A stretch of DNA of 64,000 nt from contig LADP01000042.1 of assembly GCA_000961575.1 (NCBI GenBank), positions 124,001 through 188,000 of the forward strand. The letters run 5' to 3'. The DNA comes from Peptococcaceae bacterium BRH_c8a. GTDB taxonomy: Bacteria; Bacillota; Desulfotomaculia; Desulfotomaculales; Desulfallaceae. Position 1 is the first letter of the stretch; every line of letters begins with the position of its first letter. The translations under genes and the position numbers were made by a program. The notes beneath the pieces are model-generated. The model did not search any database. It saw only the letters and a program-made list of their open reading frames with translations, and was not told where the DNA came from. Positions 1-26,737 of the stretch are shown one piece after another.

Positions 1-1666
1 AACGATATCTTTGCGGAAACCGGGGTGGCCCATGTGATGCCAGTGGTGGAATAGTGCAAGATTCCGAATTAGCATCTCCATTTTTACGATTGTTTGTGCC
101 ATTATTACCGGGTGTGCTATTACCGCCGCTCGGGGGATGGGAATTTAATTCTGGAATAATACATTCGATATCCAGGTGTATCGACCCGTCTTCTTTTGTA
201 TCAATCCATATTACCTTAACAAGTTTCATAAGGAATTCTCTTTTTTCTTTAAAGGGAGCATTTAATATATCATGTACGTTAATTCCTTGGTAACGTTCTA
301 TTAAGGTTTTTATTCCCTTAATCTTAGTGTCTTCCATTGCGATCTTTAGTTTTAGTTCTTCAGTTTGGCGTACCAAGTTCTGGTGGCGTTCTTTTATGCG
401 ATCCATCTCTTTGCCCAAGTCTTCTAATTCAATAAGCTCTTCACGGTAGGCCTTTAATATTCTCTCCTTCTCCTTGTCACAGCGGGATATTGCCTGCTCT
501 ATTTCTTTAAATTTTTGATTTAGTTCTTTTTTGGTATTTTCTAATGAGTTATCTTGAGAACAAACAGCTTCTTGCAGCCTGTCAGGATTGGACAATATGT
601 CGATCAAATGTTCTAATACTTTGTTTTCCAATTCGGCACCCTTTACCCATGTAGCACTGCATCTTTTAAGTTCACGTTCCGGGTAGTGGATGGCGGAGAT
701 GTTTTTACAACAACGGTAATAATGTTTTTCGCTACGGGGTTTCCCAATTTTTTTACCGCTTTTTCGCTTATACAAATATTGCGTGGTTCCGCCCATGTCC
801 CAGCCGCATTTTTTGCACTTGAGGATGCCACGAAGTAGGTATTGGCGCTTATTGGTGCGGTGTATCATGTTACGACGTTCTTTTAATAGTTCCTGGGCCT
901 TATTAAATGTCGTCTGGTTAATTATTGGGGGCACAAAAACTTTAACGGATGTTTTTCTGCTTTTATAAACCCATTCCCCAACGTAAACGGATTTAACCAA
1001 GATTGAATATACTCTTTCACCGTCCCATTTCCCGCCTTTTTTAGTTGGGCGCCCGAGCGCTTTTAGAATTTTTGCGATCGATATGGTGCTATTGTCAGGT
1101 TTTATATATTCGGAGAAAATTAGCCTAACGGTCTCTGCTTCTTGTTCATTAATCATTAACTGTCCGTTTTCTCGATCATAGTCGTAACCGAGCGGTGGGT
1201 TGGACAATACTACGTAACCTTCCTGGGCGCGTCGCAGCTTTCCCAATTGTGACCTTTCGATAAAGGTATCCCTTTCCAACTGCGCTATTGAGCCCAGCAA
1301 GGAAAGCATGAACTTGCCGATTGGGTTTGAAGTATCAAAGGGTTCAGTCACAGAACAAAAAGCTATTCCAAGCCGGTCCATGTGGTCAACAATTAGAAGA
1401 AGGTCTTTTACGCTTCGAAAAAATCGGTCTATTCTATAGACAATCACCAGTTTAAATTTACCTTCTGAAGCGTCTTTAAGTAGTCTTTGGAGTGCTGGCC
1501 GATTTTGAGTGGTGCCGGAATAACCGGGGTCCACATATTCACTATAAATCTTATATTGCATACTCCGGCAATAGTTTTTCAGGAGATCCAGTTGGGATGC
1601 AATGCTAAAGTTATCCGCTTGTTCTTCTGTTGATACACGCGCATAAATCGCTACCGGAATTGACAT
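1..1666 (-). CDS. Large serine recombinase (site-specific integrase), C-terminus cut by window edge
   Basis: This is the likely integrase/excisionase of the element. The reading frame is open from an ATG at 1664-1666 (with an AAGGAG ribosome site just upstream) to the window edge, about 555 codons without a stop. The N-terminus has the resolvase catalytic start IYARVSTEEQA with Ser12 as the nucleophile, followed by YRIDRFFRS with the conserved arginines. A Recombinase domain follows. Around residues 290-335 there is a zinc ribbon (LKCKKCGWDMGG, then further cysteines), then a coiled coil (about 370-450). This order is typical of large serine integrases of 450-600 residues, so the gene is nearly complete. 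Its last codons overlap, antisense, what looks like the 3' end of another gene (1-54). The domain assignment is firm; the integration target is inference. Confidence 0.95.
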   Translation of the reverse strand, partial: MSIPVAIYARVSTEEQADNFSIASQLDLLKNYCRSMQYKIYSEYVDPGYSGTTQNRPALQRLLKDASEGKFKLVIVYRIDRFFRSVKDLLLIVDHMDRLGIAFCSVTEPFDTSNPIGKFMLSLLGSIAQLERDTFIERSQLGKLRRAQEGYVVLSNPPLGYDYDRENGQLMINEQEAETVRLIFSEYIKPDNSTISIAKILKALGRPTKKGGKWDGERVYSILVKSVYVGEWVYKSRKTSVKVFVPPIINQTTFNKAQELLKERRNMIHRTNKRQYLLRGILKCKKCGWDMGGTTQYLYKRKSGKKIGKPRSEKHYYRCCKNISAIHYPERELKRCSATWVKGAELENKVLEHLIDILSNPDRLQEAVCSQDNSLENTKKELNQKFKEIEQAISRCDKEKERILKAYREELIELEDLGKEMDRIKERHQNLVRQTEELKLKIAMEDTKIKGIKTLIERYQGINVHDILNAPFKEKREFLMKLVKVIWIDTKEDGSIHLDIECIIPELNSHPPSGGNSTPGNNGTNNRKNGDANSESCTIPPLASHGPPRFPQRYR

Positions 1667-2275: not shown

Positions 2276-2800
2276 TTAATACAGTAAATTATTCTTTTTA
2301 TTGTAATTGCAAGGTGCCAAATTAACATTAAATATATCCCGGCTACGTACCTTAATATCTGTGTGCCGGAAACCAAGCTTTTTCCACATAAAAGGTTGTG
2401 TTACTTCGAAGTAGTCAGCCAACTCCCAACAACTACGAAATTTTAGCTTTGATACGGCATATGTAAGTTCTGCATCGTTTATAAGGTAATTGGTTGCCCA
2501 GCGCATGGCCTGAGTTTCGTCTTTTGCGACGGTAATTAGGTCCTGGTATGTATCTGTGTTCATGAAATTCCTGCGTATACCTGTAAAATGATGACCCAAC
2601 TCTTCCGCTAATGTGCATATATTTTTTCGATAATTATTTTTTAGGCCTTCATCTAGGAGTATGCAAGGTGCTATTGGATCCCAGATATAAAGTCCAATTA
2701 ATTTATTCAGTGAGATTTGTCTTAAATTACGATATAAAATTGAAAGGTTTTCTTTGTTGGCTAAATCTGACAGTAGCTCTAATTTAGTCAATGTATGCAA
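2276..2800 (-). CDS. ImmA/IrrE-family metalloprotease
   Basis: This 174-residue protein carries the motif AEELGHHFTG near residue 68. It matches the zinc-binding helix of the ImmA/IrrE (COG2856) family, with Glu in place of the usual first His; phage and ICE members of the family often have this change. It starts at TTG 2800 with GGAGG four bases upstream. It lies directly downstream of an Xre repressor in the same orientation. In ICEBs1-like elements such a pair works as repressor (ImmR) and repressor-cleaving protease (ImmA), which is the likely role here: relief of repression when the element is induced. The family call is strong; the substrate is inferred from gene order. Confidence 0.85.
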   Translation of the reverse strand: MHTLTKLELLSDLANKENLSILYRNLRQISLNKLIGLYIWDPIAPCILLDEGLKNNYRKNICTLAEELGHHFTGIRRNFMNTDTYQDLITVAKDETQAMRWATNYLINDAELTYAVSKLKFRSCWELADYFEVTQPFMWKKLGFRHTDIKVRSRDIFNVNLAPCNYNKKNNLLY

Positions 2801-2869: not shown

Positions 2870-3478
2870 CTACTCGTTGTCAGTAGTGGCCTTATTATTG
2901 CCTTCTTTATTTTTATGTTTAAGCTTAGCTTCCCGTTCTCGTTTGAGCTGTCTTGATTCTCGGATCCCGTTAATTATTATTTCTTCAAGTTCCGGTGTTA
3001 GTGGTATGCTCTCAGCATTTTCTAAGTGTGCTGCCATAGGTGTGGAACGGACGTCGATGTCTTCGTATGTTTCTGCTACAATATATAGTTTATTTTTTTC
3101 TTTGTCATGATACTCATAGCTTTTTTTGCTTAAGGTCCGTTTTTTAGGCTCCAAATTTTTTTCTCTTTCATTTCTTTCAACTAAAGCTTCACAAATATCA
3201 ATGAAAACCTCAATTTGATTTGGTTTTAATTGTTGGGAAAGCTTAAGTAAATACTTAAGATCAGGAGGTAATGGATTTCCTTTATTGGAAAAAAACTCTG
3301 ATAGAGTTAGTCCTAAAGCGTTACAAATACCCTCTAATTTATTTATAGAGGGAGTTTTTTTACCTTGTTCTATTTCACTTAAATATGAATGCGACATTTC
3401 AGTAAGTTTAGCTAGATCAACTACTTTTAATCCAAGTTTTTTTCGAATTTCTTTTAAGCGGTTTGCAATACTATTCAT
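2870..3478 (-). CDS. Xre-family repressor, probable element master regulator
   Basis: The protein is 202 residues long. Residues 5-60 form an HTH_3 domain (IRKKLGLKVVDLAKLTEMS, then SYLSEIEQGKKTPSINKLE). The C-terminal part is charged, with no enzyme motif. The start is ATG 3476-3478 with an AGGAG-like site upstream. It is transcribed divergently from a second small Xre gene and is followed by the ImmA-like protease, the arrangement of ImmR/ImmA modules. A palindrome TCGCTCCTAGCGA sits eight bases upstream of its start and probably allows autorepression. By analogy it would keep the conjugation genes off; that role is inference. Confidence 0.88.
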   Translation of the reverse strand: MNSIANRLKEIRKKLGLKVVDLAKLTEMSHSYLSEIEQGKKTPSINKLEGICNALGLTLSEFFSNKGNPLPPDLKYLLKLSQQLKPNQIEVFIDICEALVERNEREKNLEPKKRTLSKKSYEYHDKEKNKLYIVAETYEDIDVRSTPMAAHLENAESIPLTPELEEIIINGIRESRQLKREREAKLKHKNKEGNNKATTDNE

Positions 3479-3653
3479 AAGCAGGTCGCTCCTAGCGAAT
3501 TATGTATATATAGAATACCATGTAATGTTATGTTATTTCAAGAAAGCTGAAGGATTATCATGATAATTATTTAATACAATCGCTAACAGCGACGTTGGAT
3601 AGTTGCAATCAGTCGCTGACAGAGACATAATTATCTATAGAGAGGTGGTTATA
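3479..3653. promoter_or_regulatory. Divergent promoter region with three repressor operators
   Basis: Three related palindromes TCGCTnnnAGCGA lie at 3486-3498, 3580-3592 and 3613-3625 (the last with one mismatch). A rightward promoter fits TTGCAA at 3603-3608, a 17-base spacer and CATAAT at 3626-3631; the third palindrome fills the spacer. A leftward promoter fits TTTCAA/AGAATA (read as TTGAAA and TATTCT on the minus strand) at 3536-3541 and 3512-3517; the first palindrome lies just downstream of it. A separate perfect palindrome ATTATCATGATAAT is at 3554-3567. Confidence 0.75.
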
Positions 3654-3854
3654 ATGAAAATCATCAAAAACATTCGAAAGAAAAAAGGTTTTACTCAAAA
3701 AGCGTTAGCTTTAAAGGCTGGTATATCTCGTTCATATCTATGTGAAATTGAACAGGGATATAAACAACCTTCATTAGCTACATTATCAAAGATTGCTATG
3801 GCACTAGGCGTATCCGAGGCTACTTTGCTTATAAAGAAAAAAGAAGCGGTCTAG
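3654..3854 (+). CDS. Small Xre-family DNA-binding protein
   Basis: This 66-residue protein consists almost only of an HTH_3 domain (IRKKKGFTQKALALKAGIS, then RSYLCEIEQGYKQPSLATLS). I place the start at ATG 3654, preceded by GAGGTGG, rather than at the upstream in-frame ATG at 3603, which would lie inside the promoter. It is divergent from the longer Xre repressor, and an operator palindrome lies in its promoter spacer. A Cro- or Xis-like antagonist of the longer repressor is the natural reading. The HTH is certain; the role is inferred from position. Confidence 0.88.
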   Translation: MKIIKNIRKKKGFTQKALALKAGISRSYLCEIEQGYKQPSLATLSKIAMALGVSEATLLIKKKEAV

Positions 3855-4077
3855 ATAAACTAATTGCAAGCTTGGTAATCTCATGCAATAAGTTGTTGTT
3901 ATTTTTGCAATAACGATCCTGACGTTTTGAACTTCGATTAATTAATTGAAAGAAAAACACCATATATTTTATTTACCCAGCTAGAAAGTGATGGCAGCGA
4001 GTAGTTATATTAACTAGTTAGGCAAAATGGTACAAATTACCTTTAAAGTTTTCTAATTTTTTAAGGAGTCTTTGAAA

Positions 4078-4248
4078 ATGGGTAAAAAATGTAAGGAAAA
4101 AAAGTACATAATTACATCGCGGTTTGTTCAAACTTCCGATTGGCAAAAAGAATATAGGGATGGAATGGTAATTTTTATCAGAATGCTGGAACGAGCTGCA
4201 AAAGAATCTACTGATGAAGTTAAGAGGCGAACATCATTAAGTGGCTAA
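4078..4248 (+). CDS. Small basic hypothetical protein (56 aa)
   Basis: The frame opens at ATG 4078 with a good AAGGAG site nine bases upstream and stops at TAA 4246-4248. The product is short and basic (MGKKCKEKKYIITSRF at the N-terminus) with a charged helical C-terminus. I recognise no family. Its place after the small Xre regulator suggests an accessory protein of the regulatory or excision module. It is supported by the ribosome site and codon composition only. Confidence 0.55.
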   Translation: MGKKCKEKKYIITSRFVQTSDWQKEYRDGMVIFIRMLERAAKESTDEVKRRTSLSG

Positions 4249-4261
4249 TGACTTAAAAAGT

Positions 4262-4470
4262 TTATCGGAAAATATAATAAATTGTTAACGGGATGGGCGA
4301 GGGGGTAGGGGGAAAGTCCGAATTAGCGTATCTTGACGGTAGGTCCCCGGGCAGGGTAGCTGCCCGAAGGCGTGCCGTTATGCGGCGCAAATAAAACCGG
4401 AAATTTAGGCGGTTTAAACGGCAAAGTCGCAAGCCGTAAGCGATCCTTGATAATTGAATGATTATACCTC
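4262..4470. ncRNA. Candidate structured RNA (hairpin cluster)
   Basis: A GC-richer gene-free segment between 4249 and 4947 contains four consecutive hairpins within about 90 bases. They are GGGCAG/CTGCCC (4349-4365), GCCG/CGGC (4374-4386), AAACCG/CGGTTT (4394-4415) and ACGGC/GCCGT (4418-4437). The segment begins with GGGGGAAAGTCC (4310-4321), a string close to one in the larger structured region near 57310. No protein frame here looks real on either strand. It could be a non-coding RNA, a leader, or a DNA site such as an origin; the strand is not determined. Confidence 0.4.
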
Positions 4471-4947
4471 GCTTGTTTATGGTTAAAAAAGACATCTATA
4501 GGCGGGATGATGATTGTTTATAATCAGATTGGCAGATATCGGCAAAGAGAGCCGGGAATGAACGGCGAAGCAAATGGATGGTTGTTCACGTAGGTTTGAG
4601 GATACATCAGTTTAGAGCGGCTCTGAATTGTGTGTTTTCAAATACCACGTTAATAATAGCCAGGCGCCTAGATGCTAAGAGCTCCCCCAACCGTATAATT
4701 TACTCATATTTATAACACCGACTTGGTTGCCAGTGTTCGATTTATATTGCACGGGTTTATCACTAAAGGTGACGGCAAAGGGGCTAGCCGAGCTCCCCGA
4801 ATAGGGTCAAAAGATATTACCATGTTATGGACAATCATGTTTATTATGAAAAACAGCGTTATTTGTGCGCTGTCGTACGGAGCCGGACAGTTATGCCGGC
4901 TCCTTGGAGAGCGCATTGGTAAACAGATAATCTATGGAGGGCTGGTA

Positions 4948-5316
4948 TTGACTGAAATATTAGGTACTGAATCTGAAATTAAGTTAACATGGAGATGTAA
5001 GCCGGAATTGAGAATCAGGATGGTCAGATTAATGATTAAAAAATGTGGCCATCCCGGAGTAAGGGCTTTAGCTGAAGTATTAAGTATAAGTTACACTAAG
5101 TTATATGAAATTGGCGGATTGGAGGGGTGGATTAATAAGCGTAATTGCCAGCGAAGGCAGCGGCGCATACGGCAGAGAAATAAACTACATGAATATAGCA
5201 ATGAAATTAAATATGCGCAAGAACATGTTGCCAATGGTGGAGGAAAACGCGGTAAAGGCGGCGGTCTACAGGATGCTGGTAAACGCGCGATTATGCAATC
5301 AATATGTGGCCAATGA
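4948..5316 (+). CDS. Small hypothetical protein with HTH-like N-terminus; reading frame uncertain
   Basis: A frame starting at TTG 4948 (TATGGAGG upstream) encodes about 60 plausible residues including VRALAEVLSISYTKLYEIGG, which resembles a helix-turn-helix. After about 5130 this frame becomes unnaturally basic and glycine-rich. The +1-shifted frame, open to 5353, then reads like normal protein (MLPMVEENAVKAAVYRML). A GGAGGGGTGG string at 5120-5129 could be the ribosome site of a second gene starting at a non-ATG codon near 5130, or a frameshift may join the two halves. The first frame stops exactly at the terminator stem. Function unknown. Confidence 0.4.
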   Translation: MTEILGTESEIKLTWRCKPELRIRMVRLMIKKCGHPGVRALAEVLSISYTKLYEIGGLEGWINKRNCQRRQRRIRQRNKLHEYSNEIKYAQEHVANGGGKRGKGGGLQDAGKRAIMQSICGQ

Positions 5317-5350
5317 AAACTCCCGGGTTATTATAGCCCGGGAGTTTTCA
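5314..5350 (+). terminator. Rho-independent terminator-like palindrome
   Basis: A perfect inverted repeat TGAAAACTCCCGGG / CCCGGGAGTTTTCA flanks a nine-base loop directly after the 4948 gene. It is symmetric and could act on both strands. Confidence 0.75.
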
Positions 5351-5390
5351 TGACGGAATATAAGAAACTCTTAATTAGGGAGGTGTCTAT

Positions 5391-5564
5391 ATTAAAAAAA
5401 TTGTTCAAAAAATTGAACAGGCGCGTTTAAACTTAGGCACCATGAAAGGTTCGTTAACAAGCCCCGAGGTAGTGAAGGCCAGCCAGGAACTCGACAAGTA
5501 TATTGTGGCTTATTACAAAGAGCAGGGCCATCTGGTTCCGGGCGGAAAGGCGGCCGGTAGTTAA
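5391..5564 (+). CDS. Spo0E-family aspartyl-phosphate phosphatase (57 aa)
   Basis: The short product contains IEQARLNL near the N-terminus and LTSPEVVKASQELDKYIV. The SQELD signature and the two-helix layout are those of Spo0E/YnzD phosphatases, which dephosphorylate Spo0A~P and so restrain sporulation. A GGGAGGTG site at 5378-5385 lies five bases before an ATT codon at 5391, the only plausible in-frame start; an AUU start is rare. The length (57) fits the family. It sits two genes upstream of a Spo0F-like receiver. The family call is strong; host targeting is inferred. Confidence 0.85.
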   Translation: MKKIVQKIEQARLNLGTMKGSLTSPEVVKASQELDKYIVAYYKEQGHLVPGGKAAGS

Positions 5565-6008
5565 GCAATGTCATAAAATTCATCATTAAAGGCAATCACG
5601 GGGATAATAGTTTTCATCTATTTGACACTAAACCAACCTCATCTCCTTCCATATTAACTCGGGGTGTTTTCACTTCGAGTTTTCTTTTTTAAGAGGATGT
5701 AGCTATTGACAAGATCCAGCGGTGCCTCGATTTTGGTTAAAGCTAGCCTAAAACTTCTCTTATTGAGCTTTGAGGTAATATAAATAGAAAAATACAGCCC
5801 CCGGCCATCTAAATAGCAACCGGGGACTGCGCGCACAATGCTGCTCCGCGAGAACAGCATTTTTATTATGTCTCATAATTATGTTATTATACTAGCAATT
5901 CCGATTTTCCGCCAATATTACCAATAATAGTCTCTCTTTATTGGAAATATGGCGAAATTAGTTATAACAGAATTAATTTGATATTTCCCCAATAGGAGTG
6001 ATACTATA
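5565..6008. other. Non-coding stretch with stacked hairpins
   Basis: No gene is supported here. It holds a terminator (AACTCGGGGTG/CACTTCGAGTT, 5656-5681, then a T tract). A larger hairpin pairs CCCCCGG with CCGGGG (5795-5829). A second terminator-like stem AATGCTG/CAGCATT lies at 5837-5861, followed by Ts. Confidence 0.6.
5656..5690 (+). terminator. Rho-independent terminator
   Basis: An 11-bp stem (two G-U pairs) with a TTTT loop is followed by TTCTTTTTT. It probably ends the Spo0E-like transcript. Confidence 0.75.
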
Positions 6009-9677: not shown

Positions 9678-10416
9678 ACTAATTATGTGGCTCTTTTTAA
9701 TGCTTTCATTGCTAGTGGCTATCGGCATCCCCATCGTGCTAAAAATGCAAAAAGAAAAGCAAACCGCAATAAACGATAAAGAGATTCCACAGAACCACGG
9801 CAAGGGTCAGACCCAGGGCCTAAAAGAACTGTGGGGCATAAAGGACATAAAAAAAGGTGTTATCATTCTCAATAATAACAAATACTGCATGGTGTCAAGA
9901 CTGGCTGCCGCAGATTTTTTCCTGCTTGGCGAGGGCGAACAGACTATGGTGGAAGATTCGCTGGCTGCTGTGCTGATGGGCCTCACATACGACATTCAAA
10001 CCCTGGTCACAGCCGAAGCGGTTGACGTGAGAAAGGCGGTTATGGACGTCAGAAACGGCCTCAGTGAGCTACATCCAGCAGTGCGGGATTATGCCAATAG
10101 CTACGCAACCGAACTAAACCGCCTGACTAATGAACGGAAGGTAGCGGTTAGAAACGCCTACGCCATCATTGCGTTCGAAACCGATATGGGGCTAGAGTAC
10201 GCACGAAGCGAACTATATGCCCGGGCCTCGTACCTGACCGAAGGCTTGCGTTCGGCAAAGATTAACTGTGAACTACTGGACACCCCGGCCCTGGCCGACC
10301 TGCTCTATCACCTACTTAATCGGGGTAAGCTGTTTAGGCCTTCTGAGGCGGACGGTGCTGGTATCATGAACGAATATCATGTAGCAGAAAGGCAGGTTAT
10401 CGAAGTTGCGATTTAA
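9670..10416 (+). CDS. VirB4-associated N-terminal-domain protein (TraC-like)
   Basis: An N-terminal membrane helix (about 6-25) is followed by a soluble domain of about 200 residues. The domain resembles the N-terminal region normally fused to VirB4/TraC ATPases (KELWGIKDIKKGVIILNNNK, then FFLLGEGEQ). The stop lies inside the VirB4 start region (11-base overlap). The two probably work as a split VirB4. No nucleotide-binding motif is present. Confidence 0.7.
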   Translation: MGELIMWLFLMLSLLVAIGIPIVLKMQKEKQTAINDKEIPQNHGKGQTQGLKELWGIKDIKKGVIILNNNKYCMVSRLAAADFFLLGEGEQTMVEDSLAAVLMGLTYDIQTLVTAEAVDVRKAVMDVRNGLSELHPAVRDYANSYATELNRLTNERKVAVRNAYAIIAFETDMGLEYARSELYARASYLTEGLRSAKINCELLDTPALADLLYHLLNRGKLFRPSEADGAGIMNEYHVAERQVIEVAI

Positions 10417-12241
10417 TTTATATCAAAAAAAAACCGACCCAAAAAAAACAGAACAACCTGACGATATCAACATATTCGAGCGCAACAAGTTGAACGTCAA
10501 AGATCTGTTCAGTTCGGACGCGCTGGTAGAATACGATGACCGCCTGAGCTTGGGTGGTAAGTGGTGCCGGATATATGCTATCCAGGGACTGCCCCGGAAG
10601 TTAACCATCGGATTTTTGGATGAGATATTCTACCGAGCTGGTGATGTAGACTTAAGCGTCCATATGTCACCGGCACCTGACAAAGAAGTTATGCGATCGC
10701 TGATAACTATAGAGACCAAATACCGATCACAGTATATGTTGGACATGAAATCCGATAACATCTCTCGCCTACCCGAACTTGAAGCGGCCATCGCAGATTA
10801 TAAAAGTATACGTGACCTAATCCAGCTAAACCAGGACAGGCTTTATTTTGTTACCATCTTAATCTCCGTACACGCCAATACCCAAGATGAACTGCACCGG
10901 CGCTGCGAGTCAGTCGAGGTGGTGCTGGCCCGTATGAATATATTGTCCCGTATCCTGGTATTTCGCCAGGTGGACGGCTTAAAGGCGGTTATGCCGACCT
11001 GTAAGATTAAAATTGATGATTACTGGCGCAACTTGACTACCGGCGCGGCGGCCTGCTGCATGCCCGCCAGCGCTACCGCTGTAGGGCACCCGTCGGGAAT
11101 ATTACTTGGCTTTAACACATCCACTCGGTCACCCATTTTTATTGATCGGTTTGCTGGTGAACGATTAATCAGTAATCAGCATTGGTTTATCTCTGGCGAA
11201 TCCGGTTCTGGTAAATCGGTAACCACCCGCCTGGCCACACTTCGTGAGTCCGCTATGGGTGTCCGACATGTGTTCGTGGATCCGGAAAACGAGTACGTCA
11301 AGATGGTCCGTGACATGGGTGGCCAGGTGCTACGGATTGTCCCAGGTTCGTTCTCAGGCATGAACCTGCTGGAAATCGAGCCGAGTATTGAAGAAAACGA
11401 AACCGGCGCGAAAAGGGAAGTGGTCAATATCCAGGACAAAATTTCCGAGGTACAATCCCTGATCGCTGCCGTTATAAAACAACAGACGGGTCAAAGCCTA
11501 GGGTCTCGGGAGATAGCCGCCCTGGAAGAGTGCTTACGTAACGATTACCTGGAACGCGATATCACCACCGACCCCAATAGCCTTTACCAAGACGGGGTCA
11601 AAAAGATGATGCCTACTCTGACATCCCTGCAGGCAAAGGTAGCAGAAAAAAATGATATCCTAGCCGATATCCTAAAGCCTATGCTAAAAGACGGCAGCAT
11701 GGGCATGTTTGATGGCCAAACTACGTTAAAACTATCCGATGCCCCAATGATCAGTTTTGGTTTAAAATCTATCAGCGTGGACTTTACCCGTTTTTTTGCC
11801 ATGTATACGGTGCTCGGTTGGATCTGGCAGAAGTTTGCCCAAAAAGGCGGCCGGGCAGCTAAAAAAAGCGTGCTGGTAGACGAAGCGTGGATGTTTATGC
11901 GCTACCCAGAAGCGGCATTTTACCTAGAAGTGTTGGCCCGGCGTGGTCGTAAACACGGTTGCGGGTTGATAGTGGCCACCCAGCGATTTGAGGAATTTGC
12001 TTCTACCGCGCCTGGCCGCAGCATTATCGAATCGTGTGCAACAGTGCTGACCCTGCGCCAGGAAGAACATGCCGCCGACGCGGCGGTGCAGTATTTCAGG
12101 CTGACCGGCGGCTGCCGGGACTTTCTGACCAATGCAAAACCCGGTATGGGAATATTGAGGTTATCGGGCGCGGTTACTGCGGTGCAGGTGTCACCGGCAC
12201 CGTTTGAGTGGCCCTATGTTGAAACAAACGTAAGTGCCTAA
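10406..12241 (+). CDS. virB4: VirB4-type T4SS ATPase
   Basis: The 611-residue protein has Walker A GESGSGKSVTT (about 263-273) and Walker B SVLVDEAWMF (about 488-497). Further on are the conserved RRGRKHGCGLIVATQRFEEF segment and a Gln-rich sensor. The N-terminal 200 residues belong to the CagE/TrbE/VirB family. It energises assembly of the secretion channel and substrate transfer at the cytoplasmic membrane. It starts at TTG 10406, overlapping its upstream partner. Confidence 0.95.
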   Translation: MRFNLYQKKTDPKKTEQPDDINIFERNKLNVKDLFSSDALVEYDDRLSLGGKWCRIYAIQGLPRKLTIGFLDEIFYRAGDVDLSVHMSPAPDKEVMRSLITIETKYRSQYMLDMKSDNISRLPELEAAIADYKSIRDLIQLNQDRLYFVTILISVHANTQDELHRRCESVEVVLARMNILSRILVFRQVDGLKAVMPTCKIKIDDYWRNLTTGAAACCMPASATAVGHPSGILLGFNTSTRSPIFIDRFAGERLISNQHWFISGESGSGKSVTTRLATLRESAMGVRHVFVDPENEYVKMVRDMGGQVLRIVPGSFSGMNLLEIEPSIEENETGAKREVVNIQDKISEVQSLIAAVIKQQTGQSLGSREIAALEECLRNDYLERDITTDPNSLYQDGVKKMMPTLTSLQAKVAEKNDILADILKPMLKDGSMGMFDGQTTLKLSDAPMISFGLKSISVDFTRFFAMYTVLGWIWQKFAQKGGRAAKKSVLVDEAWMFMRYPEAAFYLEVLARRGRKHGCGLIVATQRFEEFASTAPGRSIIESCATVLTLRQEEHAADAAVQYFRLTGGCRDFLTNAKPGMGILRLSGAVTAVQVSPAPFEWPYVETNVSA

Positions 12242-12480: not shown

Positions 12481-14606
12481 TACGGCTACGGATGTTGATA
12501 TTATTAGTGTTTATGCTGTTATTTGCGATACCGGCTTATGCACAGGTGCCCGAGGCACCACAAAATATCCAGGTAAGCGTACAAAACGATGATATCAAGG
12601 TCAAGTGGTCAGCGGTTAAAGGCGCTGATATGTACGCAATTTACCGGGATAACATTTTCATAACAACTCTCAACGCAACAACATATACCGATACGGGGGT
12701 TGAACTGGCCAAGATCCACACTTATAAGATTAGGGCCAGGAATAGTGACGGCTATTCTCTGGACAGCAGACTAGTTACATACCAGTCTGGCGGCACAGGA
12801 GCAACCAGCCCTGAAAATAACCCGGGCGGCGGTTACGGCGATCCATACGATGAAGAACCAGCCGAAGACGAATCTATCCCTGTGCCGGGCGATGAAGATC
12901 CGGTCGAAAGGGTACCCACCAGTCCGACAAGCGACGAGGGCGGTATGTTCGAGAGGGTAATCGCGACGGTGGTGGATGTTCCAATTAAAGTAATCAAATA
13001 CATCGGCAACGCCGCCGGCATGAAACCCATTGACGAGCTGGTTTTTTTAAACGGATTGTCTGAGGGCGAAAAGAAACTCGCCCCATGGACAGAAAAAGAG
13101 ATCGAGTTTGTTAAACTGTGGTACGCTGCTTTGGCCGGCATTATCATGCCCTTTATGCTGGTGATAATTATAATCACTGGTGTAAAGTTGACCACCGCCG
13201 GGATTAGTCCGGGCTTGCGAGCCGAGGCCATAAACAGCATTTGGCGCTGGTTCGGCGCAGTTGGGATAATACTGGTGGCACCGCTGCTGGTACAGACGCT
13301 CTTAACGCTCGTAAATATTGTTCTGGCCGGCATCCAAAACGCTTTTACTTTAGTATCGCAGGAGATTGGCTTTGAACGCACGGTTGGCGATTGGGCATCT
13401 ATTAATGGCGGCTATTTTGATAGCATTGTCACTGGCTCCGTGTTGGGTACATCCATCGTTAAGGCGATGCTGGTGTTCCTTTTTTTATGGCTTAATATTA
13501 TCTATCTCGTCCGCAAACTCACCGTAACAGTAATGCTCTGTTTCACCCCATTTATGGCAATATTTTGGGCGACTAACAAGAACGTTAACGCGGCCGGGGT
13601 ATGGCTTGGCGAAATTGCATCCAACGCCTTCATGCCAGTCGCCCACGCCCTGGTTCTTTGCCTTGTACTCGGGTTCTGTGACGTTAAAAACGTTTCCGAA
13701 GGAACCTGGTTTGCGATACTGGTATTCATGTACACACTTATGCCAATCGCTGAGGTGCTTCGTAACTCTTTTCAAAGCCTATTTACCCGGGCATCGGGTC
13801 TAAACGAAGCCATGACCGCAAGAAACATCATGGTATCTGCGGTTGGTCTGGGCAGCATTATGTCGCTCGGTCGCGCGGGAGGTGCGTTAATGGGCGCCGG
13901 CTCAGCAGCAGCTGCGGCTGGTATGTCTATCGGCGGCTCATGCGGCGGATTGGCCCCGGTGTCCGTGCCGACAAACGGCACAGTACCAGGTATTGGCGTA
14001 CCGCCAAATATCTACGGAAATTCGGTTGGGCAACCCGGTAACTATGGCTACGATACGACCGAGGGCCAGATGGCAAGCGTACCTTCAACAGACAGGTCAA
14101 CGATGCGTACCATCGGGTTTAGCGCACAGGATGTGCCCAGGGCCCAACCACAGGCGGCATTAACTGCACCTACCCCCTGGGTTGGCTACGCTATGACCGC
14201 GGCAAATGTGGCAACGGGAGCATTCGGCGGGTTGATGCAGGTAGCCTCCGGGGCGGTACCGGGCGGGTATCAGGTATCCAAAACCATGACCAGCGCGGCG
14301 CAGGGTGCAGCCCGGTTTACGGTTGGGGCTAGCACGGTGATGGGCCAGGCACTTCACCAGCGCATGACCGGGCAAAGCAATACCATAGGCCAGGCATTAC
14401 GCCAGGTGACCGGCGTTAAAGAAAACGGTCTTAAAGGCACCTTCATCGCAGCACAGCGGGCCGGTAACGTTGGGATATCAGCCGCCAAGTTTGGTAACCT
14501 ACAACAACTACAACAATACCAACACCAAGGCAAGGAACAGCAGGCTGAGATTATGCAACCAAAACGGGTAATCGGCTTTAGGCCGCCCACAAGAGGTCTA
14601 GAATGA
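12477..14606 (+). CDS. VirB6/TrbL-like channel protein with extracellular fibronectin III domain
   Basis: I place the start at ATG 12477 (GGAGGGG upstream), which gives a clean signal peptide (IRLRMLILLVFMLLFAIPAYA). Residues 25-105 form a fibronectin type III domain (PEAPQNIQVSV, then KVKWSAVKGADMYAIYR). An acidic proline-rich linker follows. At about 225-450 there are six or more membrane helices as in VirB6/TrbL, then a long Gly/Ala/Gln-rich cytoplasmic-type tail. VirB6 proteins form the inner-membrane part of the channel. A secreted FN3 domain on this family is unusual and could contact the recipient cell or the wall. Confidence 0.85.
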   Translation: MIRLRMLILLVFMLLFAIPAYAQVPEAPQNIQVSVQNDDIKVKWSAVKGADMYAIYRDNIFITTLNATTYTDTGVELAKIHTYKIRARNSDGYSLDSRLVTYQSGGTGATSPENNPGGGYGDPYDEEPAEDESIPVPGDEDPVERVPTSPTSDEGGMFERVIATVVDVPIKVIKYIGNAAGMKPIDELVFLNGLSEGEKKLAPWTEKEIEFVKLWYAALAGIIMPFMLVIIIITGVKLTTAGISPGLRAEAINSIWRWFGAVGIILVAPLLVQTLLTLVNIVLAGIQNAFTLVSQEIGFERTVGDWASINGGYFDSIVTGSVLGTSIVKAMLVFLFLWLNIIYLVRKLTVTVMLCFTPFMAIFWATNKNVNAAGVWLGEIASNAFMPVAHALVLCLVLGFCDVKNVSEGTWFAILVFMYTLMPIAEVLRNSFQSLFTRASGLNEAMTARNIMVSAVGLGSIMSLGRAGGALMGAGSAAAAAGMSIGGSCGGLAPVSVPTNGTVPGIGVPPNIYGNSVGQPGNYGYDTTEGQMASVPSTDRSTMRTIGFSAQDVPRAQPQAALTAPTPWVGYAMTAANVATGAFGGLMQVASGAVPGGYQVSKTMTSAAQGAARFTVGASTVMGQALHQRMTGQSNTIGQALRQVTGVKENGLKGTFIAAQRAGNVGISAAKFGNLQQLQQYQHQGKEQQAEIMQPKRVIGFRPPTRGLE

Positions 14607-16294
14607 AAGCTTTCCTCAACATGGCAAAACAGGTCGCAAGGCAAATCGTTAAAAAAATAGTTAAGGCAATTGTTAAAAAGATATTGTTAGCTCTTTCTCC
14701 TGTGGCCATTGGTTTATTGCTGGCCATATTTTTTATAGCGGCATTTTACAGTGCGATGCCCCAGGAGAAAACGTTTACAGGCGTGGAAGCGTCAGAGCAG
14801 GACACCAAAATACGCAAAAAAATCAAGACGGCCGTAAACGTACAGAACGTGGCCGATTATTATATCGTTCCGGGTGAAAAAAGCGAGGGAAGTTGGTACG
14901 AAAGCGGTGGGGCAGAGACGGAGAAAGTTGACTACCTGTTAAAGAACGGCGTTGTTCGGTATATGGATAACAATGGCCGGGATGCAGAGCTGGCCAACAC
15001 CTGGGGCGACGTATTTGCCATATTAATGTACGAAAACGCCCAAAAAAACCGGGCAGCTGAGTACTCACCGAATAAGATTGATAAACTTACAAAGGACCTG
15101 CACCCCTATTTTTACGTCAAGCGTTCAGAGATTATTAGGAAATACCCCGTCGAACAGGAAGACGGCAGCATCAAGATGGAGACGGATGTCAATAATATTT
15201 TCCTCCTGGTCGAGGCCAAGACTATAAGGGGTTGGTACCAGTATAATTACGATTGGAAAACCACGCATTACGATGACGGAGGCATCAAGAAATATGAAGC
15301 GATAAAACAAGTCATGACCCTAGAACCAAAGTGGGAATGGTTTTCTAACTATCTAATTGACTATTATAAATTTAAGCCAGATGAGAAGGCCGCTACACGC
15401 GAACTGGTGGTTAACGCCTCGGAAGCCTTTTCCGGCGAAAAAGAGTGGCTTGACTGGCTCCTGAGTTACCACGGCAATATGACCTGGGCGTCCAACACCA
15501 TGATACCGGGCGAATTAATGAATTTTTTCCAGGAAGCTGAATCTATATACGGTATCCCCTGGTGGTTTTTAGCCGCAGCTGCGTTTAGGGAATCGTCTTT
15601 TAACCCGCTGGCCGAAAACGAATCTAGCGGCTGTTACGGCCTGATGCAGGTATCGCCCTCAAACTGGGCGACACATGCCCCGCAGTTAGGTTTCGATGTT
15701 GCTGCAGATCGAGATAACCCCCGGGCTCAGATCATCGTCGGTACCTATATGCTCAACGAAGCGGGTTTAAAGAGGGTTGATTGGAATGGTGATTGGAAAG
15801 AGCCGACCTTGCCGGTACTTACATTTTACGGTGGTTTCCGTGGGCTGCTGGCTAAAGAGAGGTGCCGCGAGGAATATGCCAGCGATATCTGGGAACTGGC
15901 CGAAAGGTTCCAAAACGTCAAGACTGGCTGGCCGGTACAAGGCGAGATAACCTCTCCGTTTGGCTGGCGTATTATTCTGGGCGTGAGGGATTATCATGAA
16001 GGGATCGACATCGGGGCCGCGACAGGCACCCCTATAACGTCGGTTTCCGGCGGCGTGTTGACCACTGGCTACCAGGCAGACGGGGCCGGCAACTACATCT
16101 ATATCAGGGACGGCTATTACGAATACGCCTACTATCATCTTGCAGACTTTGCCGTTTCCGACGGTGACACAATACAACCGGGCCAGATTATTGGCTATGT
16201 AGGTAGCACCGGCAGATCCTCTGGCCCACATCTGCATTTCGGTGTACGAACCATAGGCGGAAGTTGGATCAACCCGTTAAATATATTGCCCTGA
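14603..16294 (+). CDS. Bifunctional cell-wall hydrolase: lytic transglycosylase plus M23 peptidase (VirB1-like)
   Basis: A strongly basic N-terminal helix (about 3-30) and a membrane anchor (about 31-50) lead to a stalk. At about 310-400 there is a soluble lytic transglycosylase domain with catalytic Glu in FRESSFNP (about 329) and CYGLMQVSPSNWA. At about 445-563 there is a LytM/M23 metallopeptidase domain with HEGIDIG and HLHFGV zinc ligands. Gram-positive T4SSs use such two-domain enzymes to open the peptidoglycan for the channel. It overlaps the VirB6-like gene by ATGA. Confidence 0.93.
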   Translation: MKAFLNMAKQVARQIVKKIVKAIVKKILLALSPVAIGLLLAIFFIAAFYSAMPQEKTFTGVEASEQDTKIRKKIKTAVNVQNVADYYIVPGEKSEGSWYESGGAETEKVDYLLKNGVVRYMDNNGRDAELANTWGDVFAILMYENAQKNRAAEYSPNKIDKLTKDLHPYFYVKRSEIIRKYPVEQEDGSIKMETDVNNIFLLVEAKTIRGWYQYNYDWKTTHYDDGGIKKYEAIKQVMTLEPKWEWFSNYLIDYYKFKPDEKAATRELVVNASEAFSGEKEWLDWLLSYHGNMTWASNTMIPGELMNFFQEAESIYGIPWWFLAAAAFRESSFNPLAENESSGCYGLMQVSPSNWATHAPQLGFDVAADRDNPRAQIIVGTYMLNEAGLKRVDWNGDWKEPTLPVLTFYGGFRGLLAKERCREEYASDIWELAERFQNVKTGWPVQGEITSPFGWRIILGVRDYHEGIDIGAATGTPITSVSGGVLTTGYQADGAGNYIYIRDGYYEYAYYHLADFAVSDGDTIQPGQIIGYVGSTGRSSGPHLHFGVRTIGGSWINPLNILP

Positions 16295-16311
16295 AAAGGA
16301 GTAAAAATCTA

Positions 16312-18381
16312 TTGAAAGTGTTGATTGTATCCAGTAACCCTGATAACACCGTTCAGTACCTAAATCAAGCAGGTTACGAGGCCCTGCCGGTTTACGCCAA
16401 CGACATGGTAGTAATGCTAGCACAGCAAAAAAACGTCAAGGTCGCTGTATATTTTCAACCATTTGCTGTGCCTGAGAGCCATGAAAAGGTACTTAAAGAG
16501 ATGTTAGAGGCTCGCATACGGGTGATACTTGTCGCACCAAGAGAAGAAAGAATCGTACCCTACGCGGCAGCATTAGGGGTCTACGATTTACTATCCTTAC
16601 CAGTAAACAACGAGGACTTGATCAATGCCATTGAAAACCCGGGCGATAATTTTAAAGCTGCTGAATGGGTAAATGGGGGCGATTATAATATCAAAGCTGA
16701 TGTTGAAGAGGAAAACCATGAAAAAAAGGGGCTGATAGAACGCCTCCTGCCAAAAGGTAAAATAAGTGATAAAGAGCAACCTGCAAAAAGCAGATTCAGG
16801 TTGCCCGTGTGTGCAAAACCAAAAGCTTGCATAGAAACAAGTTTACCCAAAACAGTGAGTAAAGATGACAAGGACACCATAAGCACCATACTAAAATCAG
16901 CAAGCCAAAACCTAAAATTAAGTTTAATAACTAACAATGAGTTAGATAGAGCATTTGTAGTCTCTGTTATATCACCCTGGATACCAAACATCGGAACAAC
17001 ACGTCTGGCTATAAACTTGGCCAAATACATAAACGCCAACCTTTTTGACGCAGACTTCCATGGCCGTGGTCTTGGGGTGCGTTTGGGCATATCACCAGCG
17101 GATATGTGGGAGTACGACTGGCGGGACGGTGCTAACCCGGTTATTTTTAATAACGAAAAGTTAGCATGGACACTAGACCCCCACGTTGTAAACAGCGATA
17201 ACGAGTTATCACAAAGGATGCAAGAAATTATCCGGCAGTCTGCTGGCAGTAACCTGGTTATAGATGCCGGTAGCGACCCCTTGGCCTGGTACGCAAAGTC
17301 TGCTATAGAACAATCAGATATCGTTTGCATACCTCTGGTGGCCGACCCTTTACTGATGGCCCGCGCAATCCCCCGTTGGCGCAAAAAGTTCGCCATAAAT
17401 AAGCCTGCAGTAATAGCTCTAATTGGGGATGGTGATGCGGCAGAAATATCGGGAATGTTTGGTTTACCCGCTATTAAACTACCAGGGGTAACGGGAAACT
17501 TATCCAAGCTAATTAATGAGCTGATAAGTTTTGCTAACGCAGGAACGGTCAAACCACAAATAACCGTATATCTGGCCGGTCATTTTGAGCCCATTGACGT
17601 AAACGGAATACACTGCGGGGTTTACCCCGACAGTTTCGGCCTATGGAAAGCCGTGGAAGCTAACGGCATGCCTGACGCTTTGATATTCCAATCATCATCG
17701 GGTATCGAGCAGCTGATCGGAGAATTACGCCGAGATAACTATCAGCTGCCGATAGCTATAATCGGGAGCACAGATGAAAAGTATTATAACGCCGGTGCCG
17801 ACGCCTGTTATGAAAACTTAACACCGGACTGCATACGCGACTTATTTACCCGGTCGGAGCACACAAGAAGGACAAACGAAATGGCCCAAACCGACGAACT
17901 AACCGGCTGTTATCGTAAAGCAATGCTGGCAACTTTCATTGAGAAAGAAGCCCGCCGCAATCGTATGACAGGTGAAACTTTTTCGATATTAATATGCGAC
18001 CTGGATAATTTCAAGCAGGTTAACGACCAATACGGGCATCCAGTTGGCGACCTGGTGCTGAAAAGATTTGGTAGCTTTTTACGTTCTAACACTCGTCATT
18101 CGGATAAGGTGGTCAGATACGGTGGCGAAGAATTCGCGGTTATTCTTCCGAAATGTGATATCGGATCAGCCTTTGGGGTGGCCGGGAAACTGCGCCAGGG
18201 ATGGGAAGAAAATTGTCCTATTGATGTGGGGAATGGAAAGAGTATAACCGTTACCTTTAGCGGTGGTATAGCAGATGTCAACAACTGTATGGATGCACCT
18301 ATTGATATTATTGATATCGCTGACCGTGCATTGTATAAGGCAAAGGCTGCGGGGCGTAACCTTATTATGAAAGCAAAATGA
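16312..18381 (+). CDS. CpaE-like protein with C-terminal GGDEF diguanylate cyclase
   Basis: About 690 residues from TTG 16312 (AAAAGGAG upstream). Residues 1-110 resemble a receiver without a clear Asp site. Residues 215-400 resemble CpaE/TadZ/MinD ATPases, but the P-loop is degenerate (WIPNIGTTRLAI instead of KGGVGKTT). A second receiver-like part lies at about 415-520. Residues 530-690 form a full GGDEF domain with DLDNFKQVND and the intact RYGGEEF active site, so it should make c-di-GMP. CpaE proteins localise Tad pili. Lying between the T4SS and Tad genes, the gene may couple c-di-GMP to pilus assembly. Confidence 0.85.
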   Translation: MKVLIVSSNPDNTVQYLNQAGYEALPVYANDMVVMLAQQKNVKVAVYFQPFAVPESHEKVLKEMLEARIRVILVAPREERIVPYAAALGVYDLLSLPVNNEDLINAIENPGDNFKAAEWVNGGDYNIKADVEEENHEKKGLIERLLPKGKISDKEQPAKSRFRLPVCAKPKACIETSLPKTVSKDDKDTISTILKSASQNLKLSLITNNELDRAFVVSVISPWIPNIGTTRLAINLAKYINANLFDADFHGRGLGVRLGISPADMWEYDWRDGANPVIFNNEKLAWTLDPHVVNSDNELSQRMQEIIRQSAGSNLVIDAGSDPLAWYAKSAIEQSDIVCIPLVADPLLMARAIPRWRKKFAINKPAVIALIGDGDAAEISGMFGLPAIKLPGVTGNLSKLINELISFANAGTVKPQITVYLAGHFEPIDVNGIHCGVYPDSFGLWKAVEANGMPDALIFQSSSGIEQLIGELRRDNYQLPIAIIGSTDEKYYNAGADACYENLTPDCIRDLFTRSEHTRRTNEMAQTDELTGCYRKAMLATFIEKEARRNRMTGETFSILICDLDNFKQVNDQYGHPVGDLVLKRFGSFLRSNTRHSDKVVRYGGEEFAVILPKCDIGSAFGVAGKLRQGWEENCPIDVGNGKSITVTFSGGIADVNNCMDAPIDIIDIADRALYKAKAAGRNLIMKAK

Positions 18382-25357: not shown

Positions 25358-26737
25358 ATGTTTAACAATAAACGTTCATCAATTAGCGGGTTACAAAACA
25401 AATTAGATCGAATGCGGGGTGACGGACACCAGGACGCCCAAACTGAGCAAGCAATGGATCGGCTGGAGCTGTTTAACAAAGTCCGTCCGCTGGCGCAGAA
25501 AAGAATCCGAGAAAGGATAACAACGCAGGAGTTGGCAGATAGGTTTGCGCCAGCGCTTAGAACGAAAGTAAAAAAGGAAATCCTTGAAATCGTAGAACAG
25601 GAGGCACCCGGGCTACCTAAACCCGCCCAGGTTGGTATAACAGAAGAACTGGTTAACGACCTGCTGGGTTATGGCCCACTCGAACCTTATTTTAGCGGGT
25701 TACTTGCAGATCAAGTAACTGAGATTAAGGTTGACAACCCGAGAATTATTTGGGTTGAAATTGATGGTAAAGAAACCCTTGCCACTGACGACAATGGAAA
25801 GCCCGTCACCTTCAGAGATGATCAGCATTGCCGTGATGTGCTGGATCGGATGCTGGCCCCCACCGGCAGGCGGGTGGATATCTCCAGCCCACGGGTTAAA
25901 GCGCGGCTACCGGACGGTTCCAGGCTGATGGCCCATATCCCGCCGGTGGCTGTTGACGGTACCACGTTCAGTATCAGGCGCTTCAAGAAAGGCTTGACCT
26001 TGGCCAACTTGGTAGAGAAAGGGGCGATGAACGAAGAAATTATGCAGTTTATATCTGCCTGCGTAAAGGGCAGGTTAAATGCAATTGTATCTGGTGGCAC
26101 ATCATCTGGCAAAACCACCATTTTAAACGCCCTGGCTTCAGTTATACCAGAGGATGAAAGTATCATCACGATAGAAGATCCCGCCGAACTGCAATTGCAA
26201 CACAGACATGTAAGACGCCTGGAAGCAAAACCTAATAACGTTGAGGGCGAAGGAGAAGTATCCCAACGAGATCTGGTAGCAGACGCCCTGCGCATGGCCC
26301 CGAAAAGGATAGTGGTGGGTGAGTGCCGGGAAGGTGAAGCGTTTGATATGATGCAGGCCATGAACACTGGTCATGACGGCTCACTTACAACCGGGCACGC
26401 CAATAACGCTCATGAAATGCTAAACAGCAGGCTAGTTAACATGATCCAGATGGCCGATATGGGACTGCCACGCGAAGCTATCGTCGGTCAAATAGCTGGT
26501 GCTGTGGACCTTGTTATTCACATATGTAAGGATCGTACTGGCAGAAGACGTGTAGATCATATCTGCGAAACCACGGGCATTGTGGTAAGCGGGCAGCATG
26601 TAAATGTTGGGCTGCATGAGCTTTACCGGTTTGAGCAAGAAAATGATAACTGGGTAAGAACTGAGCATCCTTTCAGCCGTTACGAAAAGCTAAAATGGGC
26701 AGGCATAGAGCTTTCGCCGGAGGTGGTCAAGTGCTAG
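25358..26737 (+). CDS. tadA: CpaF/TadA-type secretion ATPase (first copy)
   Basis: The 459-residue ATPase belongs to the VirB11/CpaF family. Residues 60-215 form the N-terminal domain (LLGYGPLEPYF). Walker A is SGGTSSGKTTIL (about 244-255), then IITIEDPAELQL (Asp box) and GECREGEAFDMMQAMNTGHDG, with the His box GSLTTGHANN. It powers Tad pilus polymerisation together with the TadB/TadC proteins. Its stop overlaps the start of the TadB-like gene. Confidence 0.94.
   Translation: MFNNKRSSISGLQNKLDRMRGDGHQDAQTEQAMDRLELFNKVRPLAQKRIRERITTQELADRFAPALRTKVKKEILEIVEQEAPGLPKPAQVGITEELVNDLLGYGPLEPYFSGLLADQVTEIKVDNPRIIWVEIDGKETLATDDNGKPVTFRDDQHCRDVLDRMLAPTGRRVDISSPRVKARLPDGSRLMAHIPPVAVDGTTFSIRRFKKGLTLANLVEKGAMNEEIMQFISACVKGRLNAIVSGGTSSGKTTILNALASVIPEDESIITIEDPAELQLQHRHVRRLEAKPNNVEGEGEVSQRDLVADALRMAPKRIVVGECREGEAFDMMQAMNTGHDGSLTTGHANNAHEMLNSRLVNMIQMADMGLPREAIVGQIAGAVDLVIHICKDRTGRRRVDHICETTGIVVSGQHVNVGLHELYRFEQENDNWVRTEHPFSRYEKLKWAGIELSPEVVKC

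Follow-up and report, generated by a model that had tools for sequence, protein, structure and literature searches.

The window (the whole 64-kb stretch of DNA that was analysed) carries two divergent genes encoding Xre regulators separated by a gap of 175 bp (positions 3479-3653). The gene on the minus strand (2870-3478) encodes a predicted repressor of 202 aa, the large Xre (HTH_3, E 1.7e-14), in which the HTH domain is followed by a helical middle part and a C-terminal tail with MAAHLENAESIPLTPELEE. The fold matches of its predicted structure are SinR and DdrO, its closest solved relative by sequence is DdrO (E 1.1e-7), and a LexA-like self-cleaving domain was not found in the protein. The gene on the plus strand (3654-3854) encodes the small Xre of 66 aa (HTH_3, E 1.3e-17), which would be Cro-like judging by its position and size. 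The recognition helix reads SRSYLCEIEQG in the small Xre and SHSYLSEIEQG in the large Xre. The locus therefore has the pair of divergent HTH regulators, one large and one small, that is expected of a CI/Cro-type region.

Downstream of the large Xre gene and on the same strand lie a gene for an IrrE/ImmA-like M78 metallopeptidase homologue with the motif AEELGH (2276-2800, minus strand; PF06114 and a fold match) and a gene for a large serine recombinase (2-1666, minus strand; Pfam PF00239, E 6.5e-41, and PF07508, E 7.3e-17) that extends to the left edge of the window. Rightward of the Xre genes, genes of the type IV secretion kind start at 10 kb, among them those for a VirB4/TraG-like ATPase (10406-12241) and an M23/SLT protein (14582-16294). 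Past the secretion-type genes, a protein with a GGDEF diguanylate cyclase domain is encoded at 16207-18381. As a site-specific recombinase on the left and genes of the type IV secretion kind on the right are both present in the window, the setting is that of a conjugative-type integrative element.

The gap contains three palindromes, at the places where the initial annotation had described them. O1 (TCGCTCCTAGCGA, 3486-3498; 15-bp form 3485-3499) lies in the leader of the large Xre gene. O2 (TCGCTAACAGCGA, 3580-3592; 15-bp form 3579-3593) is exact like O1, and O3 (TCGCTGACAGAGA, 3613-3625; 15-bp form 3612-3626) has one mismatch. O2 and O3 are 33 bp apart from centre to centre, and O1 is 94 bp away from this pair. 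When the 175-bp gap was submitted to 20,000 dinucleotide shuffles and up to one mismatch was allowed, at least one site was obtained 108 times, at least two sites once and three sites never. The three palindromes are real and did not arise by chance. Across the 64-kb window, 6 matches with at most one mismatch were found compared to 0.94 expected, and the three remaining ones, each with one mismatch (27759, 28951 and 29285), are scattered within ORFs of at least 80 codons. Beyond the window, the 4.17-Mb genome assembly was scanned for the exact 13-mer pattern, which is present at only 3 places, two of them in the gap. The sole other exact TCGCTnnnAGCGA (L003; contig 28 of G000, 26650-26662) is located in the 5' part of an ORF that by eye resembles an ankyrin-repeat protein, and this match is probably fortuitous. 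It might be argued that the palindromes of the gap are themselves chance occurrences or the sites of a host regulator, as they have just 10 defined bases and single matches are scattered elsewhere in the window. The shuffle tests, the absence of a second pair of close exact sites in the genome assembly and a layout that is kept in relatives while the sequence changes make this explanation exceedingly improbable.

A relative whose recognition helix is similar suggested a wider consensus of 15 bp, GTCGCTnnnAGCGAC. To this consensus O1, O2 and O3 each carry exactly one mismatch, so that O3 is not the odd one out. The initial annotation had suggested that further sites be looked for across the element; when this was done in the window with the 13-mer and the 15-mer, no second promoter site was apparent. 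Other 15-mer matches in the window (1 with one, 2 with two and 17 with three mismatches) all fall within mechanical ORFs, and outside ORFs of at least 80 codons O2 itself was the only match with up to three mismatches. A wider regulon in the window was rejected on these grounds, with the qualification that such ORFs cover 92% of the window and the location of the other matches within them is consequently weak evidence.

Divergent pairs of large and small Xre genes were then collected using the large Xre as query. Thirty loci were kept from a search of 100 related genomes, the best 80 of 96 from a search of genome contigs, and 8 loci from a search of viral contigs. The loci kept include 44 distinct divergent large/small pairs, counting that of the window, and seven of these pairs are on viral contigs. 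For each gap, the best palindrome present in three copies was determined by script and compared with 100 shuffles of the same gap. One pair with a gap of -76 (L114) was excluded from the operator search, leaving 43 testable gaps. The palindrome beat all 100 shuffles in 29 of these 43 and at least 95 of them in 36; among the 32 non-redundant pairs the figures are 22 and 26, respectively. The window scored 57.2, compared to 26.7 ± 3.0 in its shuffles. Seven of the 43 regions were not significant, more than 5 of 100 shuffles being as good (L059, L021, L053, L054, L050 and one pair each of L043 and L017). In a set of 13 further pairs, some of which are near-duplicates and some from genomes already used, at most 1 of 100 shuffles was as good in 12. 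The palindrome itself varies from pair to pair, for example TTAGCTnnnAGCTAA in L008, ATTAACCnnnnGGTTAAT in L019 and AACGCnnnnGCGTT in L116.

The layout is common to the pairs, with one site in the leader of the large gene and two near the small gene. In 30 of 43 pairs, the first site has its centre 10-40 bp upstream of the large gene's mechanical start. In 23 of the 32 non-redundant pairs, a distance of 22-24 or 32-34 bp separates the two sites that are closest to the small gene, where the shuffles gave an expectation of 3.5 (22 of 31 without the window). These two spacing classes were picked after the first set had been seen; 9 of the 13 further pairs fall into the same classes (p 3e-6). Outside them are 9 of the 32 non-redundant and 4 of the 13 further pairs, together with two loci discussed below (L195 and L196). 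When sites reaching at least 8 bits were counted, 16 of the 23 significant non-redundant regions had three sites, 4 had two and 3 had four; for the 13 further regions the corresponding numbers were 7, 4 and 2. Given this range from two to four, the number of operators is usually three but not fixed. Combined, these comparisons indicate that the three palindromes of the window are very probably operators. At six loci (L122, L123, L124, L125, L128 and L131), several divergent Xre pairs with different recognition helices are clustered, and in L125 the clustered pairs adjoin secretion genes homologous to those of the window.

The initial annotation had also proposed that the palindromes are placed so as to block both divergent promoters. 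Promoter-like sites are not enriched in the region by themselves (5 in a consensus scan, 4.4 in shuffles). For the large Xre gene, the consensus scan alone gave a candidate leftward promoter, TTGAAA-18-TATTCT (3512-3541, minus strand), which is a weak consensus match, and a second candidate, ATTACA-16-CATAAT (3526-3499, minus strand). The rightward promoter of the small Xre gene, TTGCAA-17-CATAAT (3603-3631, plus strand), has 9 of 12 consensus letters, which taken alone is no better than chance; it is supported because its placement relative to O3 recurs in relatives. In 11 of the 32 non-redundant pairs of the first set, window included (1.34 expected), the small gene has a 9-of-12 promoter with O3 within 2.5 bp of the spacer centre, and O3 is likewise centred on the promoter spacer in 8 of the 13 further pairs (0.70 expected). 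The comparison thus supports the proposed placement, which is not seen in every pair. O3 was also said to fill the 17-base spacer exactly, and this had to be corrected: O3 covers 13 of the 17 bases (3613-3625 of 3609-3625) and abuts the -10 box, its 15-bp form reaching one base into it. O2 is situated 10 bp upstream of the rightward -35 box. Repeated palindromic operators are accordingly found at both promoters, as in CI/Cro-type regions, the leftward promoter being the weak consensus match mentioned above.

The likely Shine-Dalgarno sequence of the large Xre gene, TAGGAG (3489-3494, minus strand), read from the letters and not mentioned in the initial annotation, sits within O1, 10 nt ahead of the ATG. 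O1 could in principle act mainly as an RNA hairpin (UCGCU-AGG-AGCGA) hiding this Shine-Dalgarno sequence, its likeness to O2 and O3 being secondary, and the AGG would indeed fall in the loop of the minus-strand transcript as read from the letters. The same palindrome is present at the small-gene promoter here and in relatives, where it changes along with the recognition helices, and we consider the hairpin explanation very unlikely.

The initial annotation had envisaged that different affinities of the three sites could give a lambda-like bistable switch. Such a difference in affinity found no support: O1, O2 and O3 all depart by a single base from the 15-bp consensus, and which site is weakest follows no rule common to both sets. 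The weakest site is O1, O2 or O3 in 10, 11 and 2 of the 23 significant pairs of the first set, respectively, and in 2, 6 and 5 of the 13 further pairs; the first set alone would make O3 seldom the weakest. An affinity ladder deduced from the O3 mismatch was rejected because of the equal mismatches and of this inconsistency between the sets.

Over 11 positions of the recognition helix (n=32), identity was 0.427 between partners compared to 0.269 between non-partners (z 7.3). The rest of the HTH domain, taken as a scaffold, was only slightly raised (0.338 compared to 0.312, n=32, z 3.2), and the difference was not significant for helices 4-5 alone (p 0.14). The further pairs gave 0.441 and 0.293 for the recognition helix (p 5e-5). 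In the 23 non-redundant pairs with significant operators, pairs with more similar helices in both partners also had more similar operators (Mantel r 0.36, p 0.0002), with r 0.32 for the large protein and r 0.29 (p 0.0006) for the small one, both at p <0.001. The correlation of operators with scaffold similarity was weak for the large protein (r 0.18, p 0.012) and r 0.05 (p 0.27) for the small protein. The closest case to the window comes from an Ammonifex MAG, where it is the second such pair (L012, identical in position to L036), and has the operator GTCGCTnnnAGCGAC. Its recognition helices are 91% (large) and 64% (small) identical to those of the window and its operators are spaced 92/32 compared to 94/33, and blastn of the first 30 kb of the window against L036 found no DNA match.

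The covariation of partner helices and the tracking of helices by operators are indirect evidence that the two Xre proteins probably share their binding sites, like CI and Cro. An alternative is that the large Xre alone uses the sites in an autoregulated manner, like ImmR of ICEBs1, the small Xre acting elsewhere or through protein contact, like MOR of TP901-1. There is precedent for both parts: the two ICEBs1 promoters have regulatory regions in which six sites are bound by ImmR (PMC8960796), and in TP901-1 the second protein acts through a complex with CI (PMC7250872). The strong covariation of partner recognition helices and the fact that operators also track the helix of the small protein argue against it, and we regard this alternative as unlikely.

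Comparison with an element of another genome (L126, in G010) revealed how specificity may have changed. Its M78 gene and repressor tail match the window at 79-81% DNA identity and parts of 4296 to 5548 match at 72-80%; between about 3182 and 4295, blastn of L126 against the window gave no match at E <= 1e-5. This unmatched stretch holds the HTH domain of the repressor, the operators and the small Xre. In L126 the operators belong to the ATAACCnnnnGGTTAT type, and 64, 32 and 33 bp separate the four candidate sites. In L005/L126, about three small genes, one of them PIN-domain-like by eye, lie between the repressor and M78 genes, which are adjacent in the window. For two other loci, matches within the first 16 kb of the window begin only at a nearby position and continue rightwards: L195 (contig 5 of G010) from 4301 to about 5.5 kb and L196 (contig 63 of G008) from 4292 to about 5.3 kb. 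The palindromes in their divergent HTH pairs differ again, being AACGnnnnnnCGTT and AGACACnnnnnGTGTCT-like, respectively, and each beat all 100 shuffles, with spacings of 52/20 and 27/30. From these alignments, immunity specificity looks as if it had been exchanged as one cassette against a fixed right boundary.

At the constant right edge of the exchanged cassette lies a conserved and strongly folding segment (4290-4945, plus strand; fold z -4.1, none of 20 shuffles as good). Among 60 genomes, including that of the window, DNA matches to it were found at two places in G010 and one in G008; it is therefore kept in three other elements beside unrelated switch cassettes. The segment is possibly a structured RNA. 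No Rfam match was obtained inside 4290-4945 at E <= 1, and a known RNA family in 3300-6000 was rejected, the one match being a weak His_leader (5311-5386, minus strand; 24.8 bits for a gathering score of 49).

The M78-fold protein is encoded beside the repressor, as in the ImmR-ImmA and DdrO-IrrE systems. Its own match to PF06114 (E 0.0011, 19.1 bits) is below the Pfam cut-off of 22; all nine aligned relatives match this family at E <= 0.01, the best at 1.7e-11. A search for a solved relative by sequence gave chance-level matches only; the fold search did better. With a model of mean pLDDT 81, the top PDB fold matches were IrrE/PprI (probability 1.00, E 2.4e-3, TM about 0.5), and no match was obtained in the PDB at E <= 0.001. 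Instead of the HEXXH zinc motif the protein reads EELGH, lacking the first His. All 9 aligned sequences have E66, E67 and H70, and in the M78 proteins encoded next to these repressors the place of HEXXH is taken by EELGH, EEIGH or EEVGH; HELGH was found in one weak match only (L039), and three short or cut matches are without the motif.

Of the long-tailed repressors, 6 of 11 are followed downstream by an M78 gene within 2.5 kb, compared to 1 of 67 short-tailed ones (Fisher p 1.2e-5), in a table that omits cupin tails and copies with less than 600 bases downstream; in a version with cupin-type tails mixed in and one overlapping gene missed, p was 0.069. The motif filter of the table also misses four long repressors with an adjoining M78 gene (L007, L031, L130 and L131). 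Among the five long-tailed repressors without an M78 gene within 2.5 kb, three share one contig (L123), on which the two M78 genes lie over 3 kb downstream, one (L129) is separated by other genes from an M78 gene 3.9 kb off, and one (L121) has a different tail. Release of the switch through cleavage of the large Xre by the M78 protein, as the initial annotation had it, is plausible by analogy, given the IrrE-like fold and the linkage of the gene to the repressor's tail, with a zinc motif that departs from HEXXH. Cleavage by the peptidase in ImmR/ImmA (PMC8960796) and DdrO/IrrE (PMC10233336) provides the analogues for this pair.

We conclude, with a probability of about 0.78, that the locus serves as a control region of the CI/Cro type in an integrative element of conjugative type. 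We infer that the switch would work as follows. The divergently read large and small Xre, with their matched recognition helices, would both bind the palindrome GTCGCTnnnAGCGAC. A dimer on O3, within the -35/-10 spacer, and another on O2, just upstream, would shut off the small Xre and the genes beyond. A dimer on O1 would cover the start region and the Shine-Dalgarno sequence of the large Xre gene and limit or shut off the repressor. The element would be silent when the large Xre dominates, and the repressor would be off when the small Xre dominates. The neighbouring IrrE/ImmA-like protein may inactivate the large Xre on a signal, whereupon the switch would flip.

At least 40 predicted trios, each consisting of a repressor, a Cro-like partner and operators, result from this analysis (36 of 43 and 12 of 13 regions, some of them near-duplicates). 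Their specificities differ, and they allow operator letters to be set against residues of the recognition helix. The question of how two proteins and several sites of a switch can alter their specificity together is thereby opened to direct test, and a likely cause can be named for the heteroimmunity of conjugative-type elements that are related to each other. The trios are also candidates for use as parts of insulated genetic switches. A broader interpretation, which we advance as a speculation and hold to be rather doubtful, is that the pairs are CI/Cro-type modules, insulated from one another, of a large family that is exchanged horizontally. These would have a fixed layout and an interchangeable specificity in which operators change jointly with the recognition helices of the two partners; entire cassettes would be swapped at a fixed right boundary beside the possible structured RNA, and arrays in one locus would document the immunity (or exclusion) accumulated against related elements. 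Among the matches listed in literature searches, titles and abstract openings gave no description of this family, either for helix-operator covariation in divergent repressor pairs or for Xre switches in conjugative elements or Desulfotomaculum.

In lambda and P22, CI and Cro are a divergent large repressor and small Cro-like protein acting on common palindromic operators, and in lambda imm434 the whole specificity cassette is exchanged. The window resembles these phages in its divergent large/small pair, in the operators that both proteins probably share and in the cassette exchange, the joint replacement of HTH domain, operators and small Xre in L126 being likened to the lambda/434 immunity swap. 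It differs in that the candidate promoters do not overlap, their -35 boxes being about 60 bp apart, in the 94 bp between O1 and the O2/O3 pair, and in a SinR/DdrO-like repressor, without a LexA-like domain found, on an element of conjugative type. Deinococcus DdrO/IrrE are the closest solved relatives, DdrO by sequence and IrrE/PprI by fold for the peptidase; IrrE has a zinc-motif His where the M78 proteins here have Glu. Unlike the repressor of the window, DdrO controls host DNA-repair genes (PMC10233336). In ICEBs1, the repressor ImmR covers both divergent promoters (PMC8960796). The window shares with ImmR/ImmA an Xre repressor, an M78-type peptidase and a recombinase on one strand of an integrative element; ImmR has 127 residues and six sites, whereas here a longer repressor tail, three sites and a small Xre with a matched helix are found. 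TP901-1 CI/MOR is a bi-stable divergent repressor pair with three CI operators (PMC7250872), which is like the window in the pair and in the number of operators; MOR works as a complex with CI, whereas the proteins of the window appear from their helices to read one palindrome. Combined, these comparisons give good support to the assignment of the switch to the familiar lambda-like class and not to a new kind of system; its unusual feature is the view of a family in which the layout recurs and specificity changes jointly in two proteins and several sites.
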